Shown: piece after piece, positions 28,601 through 31,600 of the stretch
Layout of the letters: each line of letters opens with the position of its first letter
Position numbering within the stretch: position 1 is the stretch's first letter
Source of the DNA: Manis javanica
Lineage: Eukaryota > Chordata > Mammalia > Pholidota > Manidae
Length of the DNA: 64,000 bases
Assembly (NCBI RefSeq): GCF_040802235.1
Contig: NC_133156.1
Span: 27,981,343-28,045,342, forward strand
Reading direction: 5' to 3'
Notes under the pieces: generated by a model
Database searches by the model: none
Seen by the model: only the letters and a program-made list of their open reading frames with translations
Told to the model about the DNA's origin: nothing
Program-made: the position numbers and the translations under genes

Positions 28601-31600
28601 GATTGAAAGTTAGGCCAGGAGGAAATGTTATCCTCTGGCACCTTCAGGTGGGCCATTTGCAACAAGTGCCATTTGCAGCTGATTATTGTGAGATTTGGAA
28701 TTTTCCTAAGTATTGTGCAACCAAAACAAAATACAGAAGCATGTCACATACATAGGTCAATTTATTTCTGCAACGACCGCCCATTTCAAAATTTTTGCTT
28801 TCATCAATATCTTTCTATTCCCAGTGGTTGACTTTAAATGTATTGTATTCAAACTTAGTCATCTGATGATACACAGTTGCCTTTTTTTACTTTATATACT
28901 GGCCTCCAAAATAAGCTTTAGCATGAAAGCCTATGCATAGCAGCTAACACTGCATGTGCTGTGTGCCAGGCTGTGAGCCGAGCTAATGCTCTGACAAAAC
29001 ATTATCTCCTGAGCACTCATGACGGCCCTTTGAGGTGGGTATTGTTGGCCCCATTTAACAGATGAGGCAAGTGAGGCTCAGGGAGGCTAAGTGTCTTGCT
29101 CAAGTCAGAGGCAGGGAAAGAAGCCAGGTCTGCCTGGTGCCCGAGCCTCTTCGCTGTCTTACCAAACTGCCTCTCCCCTAAGTGGCCCCTTGTCAGCCCC
29201 CCACCGGGAAGCCTGTGGCCTCCCTGGGGACTGTCCCTGCGCCTGTCCCTCTGCAGGGCCCATCTACATCATCACTGAATACTGCCGCTATGGTGACCTG
29301 GGGGACTACCTGCACCGCAATAAGCACACCTTCCTGCAGCGCTGCCCTGACAAGTGCTGCCCGCCCAGCACCGAGCTGTACAGCAACGCCCTGCCAGCCG
29401 GCCTCACCCTGCCCAGGTACTAGGAGGCAGGCTGGAGAACTGAGTCTCTGGGGAGCCCTGAGGAGCCACCACCCACTCCCTCCTTGTCCAGGACAGGATG
29501 CTGAGGCCAGGGCAGGCAGAGTCGCCCCCGAGCCAGAACTGTTTCACAAGCCAGTCCTGGCCTGGGACTTGGCCGCCCCAGGAGAGGGCATCACAATAAG
29601 GGTGATGATAATGGTGGGGTCAGCTGCCTCCGACTGACTGTCCGCAGTGTGCCAGGCCCTGTGCTAGGCACTTTGCAGATGGGACCCCTTGGCCTCTCAC
29701 ACTGTCCCCGTGTTGTGGGGTCTCCTTCCCCTTCCACAGTGAGCACCCGGTGCTCCCCGGCTCCAGGCCCCATTCCCACTGCAGGGCTCCGTGCTCTACC
29801 CTTAAGGGGGCAGGCGGGGGGCCTCTCCATTTGTGATGTTCCTCTCACCACCAGCCACGTGTCCCTGCCTGGGGAGAGTGACGGTGGCTACATGGACATG
29901 AGTAAGGATGAGTCGGTGGACTACGTTCCCATGTTGGACATGAAAGGAGACATCAAATATGCAGACATTGACCCCTCCAACTCCATGGCCCCTTATGATA
30001 ACTATGTTCCCTCAGGTGGGTGCAGTATCCTCACACCTGCATGGCCCTCACACGTGTACAGTGATGCATTCTTTTGAAAGTCTTTCTCATGCCTGGCCTG
30101 GCAACAGTTCTGGGAGAAAGGTGGCCTTGTGCCCATTTCACAGATGCAGAAACTGAGGCTAGCTACCTGCCCAAACCTGCTGTGTGGTGTAGCCCTAATA
30201 TGAACCCCCACTTCTGGGTCCAGAAGTATGCACATGGCCCACGGGGAGGGGAGGAGTCAGGGCAGGGGAGCACCTGGCTTCCTGGGGCCTTGAGGAAGGG
30301 TGGTCTACAAAGAATAGGCCCCAGGCTTCTCCGGTGTCCCTGAGAAGCAGACTGGCCAACGGCGGCCCAGGGCTAGTGACAAAGGATCTGCTGGCCAGTG
30401 AGAGCACTGATAAGTAGGAGAGCTTTAAGTTATATATTTAGAAATTGTTTTCATTTTGGGGGATACTTAGCATCAGTAGCCACCTGTATTGGACATTCAC
30501 CCTCCATGAGTGACAGGGTAGGGGTTCTGTGGGCCACTGGGAGAGAAAAGATGGCAGGTGACCTTCTGCTGTCCCCTAGCTCCCGAGAGGACCTGCCGGG
30601 CGACTCTGATCGACGAGTCCCCAGTGCTTAGCTACATGGATCTTGTGGGCTTCAGCTACCAGGTGGCCAACGGCATGGAGTTCCTAGCCTCCAAGAACGT
30701 ATGTATGGTCATGGTGGGCAGAGTGGGGTCATGAGGAGGTGGGCCCCCAGCCAGCCAGCGTCCCAGGGGCTCAAGTTCCAGGGGCACAAGTACACGGCTA
30801 CATATGGCAGCTGTGTCCCCTCTGGTGGGTGAGGACAGGTAATGCCCTCTCACTGTGTGGCCCCTCTCACCTGTACAGTGGTGTGTTTTTCCCAAAGCCC
30901 TTAACATGGAGGGTCTTTTCCCACAATTGCTCCCAAGGCCTCAGCTCCTGTCTCCCCCAACCTAGTGTGTGCACCGGGACCTGGCAGCCAGGAATGTGCT
31001 CATCTGTGAGGGCAAGCTTGTCAAGATCTGTGACTTTGGTCTGGCCCGTGACATCATGCGTGACTCGAACTACATCTCCAAAGGCAGTGTGAGTACCTTC
31101 CCTGACTCGAGGAACGGCTGCCCTCCTGGTCAGGGTGGCTGCTGCCTGTGCCGAGCAGGCCGGTGCTCCTCAGGGCGTGGCCCAGCCAGCAGCAACAGGC
31201 TTTGCCCATCTAGCCTTGTGTGCAGGGACAGGAAGAGAAGCCACCAGCTGTGCATGGGGTGAGGGGGACAGACGCTGAGACCTGCGGGGGCAGGCCAGGG
31301 GCCCAGACTCACTGGTCACGGCAGGGGGCAGGCCCAGTGTTCCAGGGGCAGTGGTGGGCAGGGGAAGAAGCCCAGGCCACAGCAGGAAGGGGCAGGTGGT
31401 ATGTGGTTAAATGTAACCATTCTACCTCTCAGTCATGTCCCCACTTTCCACAGGGGACAGTGAGCCCCAGAGCTGTAGGCCCAGAGATCTAAGGCAGCAG
31501 AATGAGAGCCGGGTGGCACCTTGGCATGTCCCTGGCTCTCCCACTCCTGTACCAACCTGGCCAGGGGCCTCTCCTGGGGTCTGCCAAGGGGCCTGTTCCA

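Follow-up and report, generated by a model that had tools for sequence, protein, structure and literature searches.

Tyr771 in the kinase insert of the PDGF receptor beta (PDGFRB) has been described as the docking tyrosine for RasGAP, and the binding of RasGAP to phospho-Tyr771 is given in passages of both PMC9133640 and PMC8259415. In Table 1 of PMC5566449, the Y771F mutant is given as a receptor that fails to interact with 'Ras and GAP', and the tyrosines used by PI3K, SHP2, Grb2 and PLC-gamma are also assigned there. An earlier note on the DNA analysed here had treated phospho-Tyr771 as the established RasGAP site, and these portions of the three papers agree with it. According to passages of PMC8259415, Tyr771 is in addition the main site for the SH2 domain of Abl2, where the Y771F mutation lowers Abl2 SH2 binding by 90% and leaves a small remnant, and autophosphorylation was observed to persist in the human Y771F receptors. 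Phospho-Tyr771 is also reported to be dephosphorylated by SHP-2. Antibodies against phospho-Tyr771 serve as receptor readouts, as portions of PMC4658112 and PMC9133640 indicate.

The physiological weight of this site has been approached with receptors carrying altered docking tyrosines. A section of the review PMC6013765 relates that, in a five-site PDGFR mutant, mitogenesis was not rescued when the RasGAP tyrosine was restored alone and came back when the tyrosines for PLC-gamma and PI3K were restored. In the part of PMC5566449 that deals with PDGF-driven gel contraction, the pathways apart from PI3K and PLC-gamma are described as dispensable. A natural loss of Tyr771 from PDGFRB was not described among the literature matches listed (titles and abstract beginnings, mostly from non-subscription journals), where the searches directed at evolution returned off-topic papers. 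A beta chain without phosphate at position 771 is said to occur in the alpha/beta heterodimer, where Ekman reportedly described it in 2002 with an involvement of SHP-2. Judging by its title, another paper reports a negative effect of heterodimer activation on ERK1/2 signalling and on proliferation.

Identity of the gene and its reading frame

The window analysed here is a stretch of 64 kb without any N. The coding exons of PDGFRB were located in it by tblastn, where a provisional human PDGFRB sequence was the query and the exons matched in order from 16662 to 35630. When joined at AG/GT borders (21 borders), the exons were observed to form a single frame that closes with a terminal TAG, and the resulting chain of 1104 residues has no other stop. 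The splice sites are usable throughout, where one border needs a GC donor. This donor is found in place of GT at 23032-23033 (AAAAG/GCGAGT), directly after the exon end at 23031, and placing the exon end there restores the human reading LKRCPRE. Across its 22 exons the coding frame is intact, and for this frame a pseudogene or gross misassembly behind Ser771 was rejected. The positions of the features are collected in Table 1.

Among the best 60 of the 175 matches listed for the receptor, the highest was the PDGFR beta chain of PDB 11ue with 937.8 bits, and the others reached at most 556.9 bits, a gap between beta and alpha that is somewhat overstated because the listed alpha chains align in two stretches without the insert. 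On this sequence evidence the receptor is assigned to PDGFRB, a class III receptor tyrosine kinase, and not to the alpha receptor, KIT or CSF1R. Extracellular exons of CSF1R were also found downstream of PDGFRB at 57777-63997 on the same (+) strand, and PDGFRB followed by CSF1R on one strand is also the human gene order. The protein identity points to a placental mammal as the source of the gene.

We noticed that the codon at 16659-16661 is ACG, at the position where human PDGFRB presumably starts with ATG. The next in-frame ATG is located at 16677, 18 bases downstream of the ACG, and aligns with human Met7, so that the signal peptide would begin six residues later.

Table 1. Features of the PDGFRB locus, in positions of the window
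Feature	Position	Strand	Basis
PDGFRB coding region, 22 coding exons, frame open to TAG	16659..35633	+	tblastn, exon joining, frame check
Exon 15, end of kinase lobe 1 and initial portion of kinase insert	29257..29416	+	exon joining, alignment
Exon 16, second part of kinase insert	29855..30015	+	AG/GT borders; 54 aa match PDB 11ue, E 5.2e-27
Tyr740 PI3K motif YMDM, kept	29889..29900	+	sequence and tyrosine comparison
Tyr751 PI3K motif YVPM, kept	29922..29933	+	sequence and tyrosine comparison
TCC codon, giving Ser where human has Tyr771 (docking tyrosine for RasGAP and the Abl2 SH2 domain)	29982..29984	+	sequence, frame, 11ue alignment
Tyr775 and Tyr778 (YDNYVPS), kept, directly downstream of Ser771	29994..30014	+	sequence and tyrosine comparison

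Repeats and other features of the window

Upstream of CSF1R (exon at 57777), a direct repeat of 112 bases was observed, the two copies of which (54350-54460 and 55085-55196) are 95.5% identical. It is one of the two rows returned when the window was compared with itself for pairs of more than 80 bases, the other being a local 141-base pair at 70%. MIR copies were the sole SINEs recognised (blastn, E up to 0.01) with 16 provisional query sequences (SINE consensus sequences, plus a tRNA box), which may be imperfect and with which a type that goes unseen is not proven absent. A single 15-base chance match to a bat-type query was also obtained (blastn, E 0.041). No young dispersed SINE family was seen in the window with these consensus sequences and the self-comparison, and the window appears to be SINE-poor for 64 kb of mammalian DNA. 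Neither a tRNA gene nor an Rfam match at the gathering threshold was found in the window. Furthermore, pattern scans of the viral_contigs and genome_contigs collections, which are both viral or prokaryotic and not mammalian, gave 8 and 22 matches respectively, none of which was confirmed, and yielded no relative.

Codon 771 and the tyrosines of the cytoplasmic part

The TCC codon at 29982-29984 is in codon phase 0 and specifies residue 771 of the chain in a numbering that begins with the ACG at 16659. In the alignment with the human PDGFR beta chain of PDB 11ue, a tyrosine is found opposite this serine, which bears out the claim of the earlier note that a serine precedes MAP in the kinase insert where the human receptor has Tyr771. 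The YxxP motif is consequently absent at 771, where SMAP replaces the human YMAP. Given that TAC and TCC are one base apart, we infer that a single base was changed from TAC to TCC. The neighbouring residues 767 and 768 were also found to diverge from human, as E767D and S768P. Copies of TCC flank an AAC on both sides at this place, and local copying was considered as a source of the codon and rejected; the 9-mer TCCAACTCC is unique in the window and, with this single occurrence, no donor copy is seen there.

The serine could instead be a private or minor allele, or a base error of the assembly, with Tyr771 kept in the usual receptor of the species. The small distance between the two codons and the single haplotype that is visible would both agree with such a reading, but we consider it unlikely, given that the PDGFRB frame has no internal stop, the window has no N, and the changes at 767 and 768 are what real divergence of a variable stretch predicts. 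The preferred reading, that the serine belongs to the receptor of this species, is taken up below.

A total of twenty-six of the twenty-seven cytoplasmic tyrosines of the human receptor (residues 557-1106) were found to be kept, with Tyr771 as the sole loss, and no tyrosine was gained in this part relative to human. Twenty-five of the twenty-seven lie within the 11ue alignment, while Tyr1009 and Tyr1021 were compared with the provisional human sequence, which served for all human comparisons beyond the 11ue range. Seven tyrosines are located in the kinase insert (human 699-797), and of these only 771 is lost, with 716, 740, 751, 763, 775 and 778 still in place. The statement of the earlier note that the remaining docking tyrosines of the insert are intact thus holds for all six of them, which include both PI3K sites (740 and 751). 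Human YxxP motifs of the cytoplasmic part are found at 581, 771 and 1021, and those at 581 and 1021 remain here, both outside the kinase insert. As no new tyrosine is present in the comparison with human 557-1106, the kinase insert has not acquired a replacement YxxP.

Divergence from human and chance expectation

The cytoplasmic part was observed to be unevenly conserved. Identity to human is 141/142 over residues 557-698 and 163/165 over residues 798-962, compared to 85/99 in the kinase insert (699-797) and 128/142 aligned residues in the tail, where two more residues are deleted. The kinase insert is therefore the least conserved among the four cytoplasmic segments compared. Near-identical kinase parts together with a variable insert fit a working kinase, as judged from the alignment. 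In the extracellular part, 419/500 residues are identical to the provisional human sequence. We also noticed that the portion of the insert in exon 15 reads RCPDKCC where human has HHSDKRR, with three new cysteines, and that V690G in the same exon is the sole difference within human residues 557-698.

The rates used here are rough, in that they come from one species pair (with human) and ignore the tree. At the rate of the non-tyrosine cytoplasmic residues, of which 32/523 were changed (two deletions included), 1.65 changes are expected among the 27 tyrosines, with a probability of 0.82 for at least one. At the rate of the non-tyrosine residues of the kinase insert, of which 13/92 were changed, 0.99 changes are expected among its 7 tyrosines (P = 0.66). 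The loss of a single tyrosine is statistically not unusual, and what gives it interest is the identity of the tyrosine that was lost. As the observed loss is close to the background expectation and falls in the most variable cytoplasmic segment, no selection is shown.

Predicted consequences for RasGAP and Abl2 docking

Serine is not phosphorylated by a tyrosine kinase. With Ser771 the receptor would carry no phospho-771, and beta homodimers would be expected to recruit RasGAP and Abl2 poorly, whilst the sites for PI3K, SHP2, Grb2 and PLC-gamma would stay. From the papers on phospho-Tyr771 and on Y771F, a loss or weakening is probable for both couplings, to RasGAP and to Abl2. The interpretation in the earlier note, that the receptor may lack RasGAP recruitment and have altered Ras signalling, is partly supported, in that a lower RasGAP recruitment from Ser771 can fairly be expected. 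The Abl2 coupling is a second predicted consequence, absent from that note. We favour, with a probability of roughly 0.6, an intact and presumably working PDGFRB in which the Tyr771 codon now specifies serine, in which homodimers are poor at recruiting RasGAP and Abl2, and in which the change is tolerated.

Several weaker expectations follow for signalling. Ras-GTP might be somewhat higher or longer-lived after PDGF-BB and, separately from this prediction for Ras, Abl-driven responses might be reduced. Toward RasGAP, the beta homodimer would resemble the alpha/beta heterodimer. However, the title on ERK1/2 signalling by the heterodimer, as it is reported, argues against a simple rule in which less phospho-771 gives more Ras output.

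Other routes for RasGAP also have to be weighed, in which Tyr771 is lost and RasGAP still docks via another phosphotyrosine or via bridging proteins, such that Ras signalling is unchanged. The kept Tyr775 and Tyr778 are located at distances of only 4 and 7 residues, YxxP is still found at Tyr581 and Tyr1021, and the slight Abl2 SH2 binding left in Y771F, as given in a portion of PMC8259415, suggests that other phosphotyrosines may dock weakly. Against this, no tyrosine and hence no YxxP was gained in this receptor, and the Y771F mutant, in which one tyrosine is changed, is entered in the table of PMC5566449 as failing to interact with 'Ras and GAP'. We therefore regard an unchanged RasGAP docking as rather improbable, more so than an allelic or assembly origin of the serine.

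Returning to the preferred reading of a working receptor with weakened RasGAP and Abl2 docking, the loss would most likely be tolerated, where RasGAP docking would modulate Ras output and not be essential, and where the site is located in a fast-changing insert. Positive selection is not needed for Ser771. That the serine was selected, with a lower RasGAP and Abl2 recruitment tuning the PDGF-driven Ras or cytoskeletal output in the lineage, might be read from the sole loss among 27 tyrosines having hit one that docks a Ras brake, but it is very improbable when the background rate alone predicts 1.65/27 losses and Ser771 sits in the kinase insert, where conservation is the lowest among the four segments.

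A wider claim can be made only tentatively and at somewhat less than even odds, namely that in a whole mammalian lineage PDGFR beta no longer docks RasGAP and Abl2, as a natural counterpart of Y771F in which this brake is missing when homodimers signal to Ras. If the species lives without Tyr771, this would suggest, without any engineering, that RasGAP and Abl2 docking at this residue is dispensable. In addition, an antibody against phospho-Tyr771 should be expected to fail on the receptor of such a species. The understanding of the receptor family would be unchanged by the loss of Tyr771. At a modest estimate, Ser771 represents natural variation in a known receptor, which carries low surprise until it is found to be fixed in a lineage.

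Comparison with known systems

The human Y771F laboratory mutant, as described in portions of PMC8259415 and PMC5566449, is similar to the receptor found here in that it has no phosphorylatable residue 771 and its other cytoplasmic tyrosines are present. Unlike this mutant, where the residue is a phenylalanine, the residue here is a serine and natural. Furthermore, 13 more differences from human are found in the kinase insert (14/99 in all), and the present receptor is known from its sequence. The alpha/beta heterodimer reportedly shares with it a beta chain without phosphate at 771. In the heterodimer, however, the loss is one of phosphorylation and involves SHP-2 and the dimer, whereas here it is encoded in the DNA and would extend to beta homodimers. 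Human PDGFRB (PDB 11ue) is the same receptor, with identities of 141/142 and 163/165 in the kinase parts and with 26/27 cytoplasmic tyrosines in common, but the human Tyr771 is replaced by serine here and the kinase insert is 85/99 identical.
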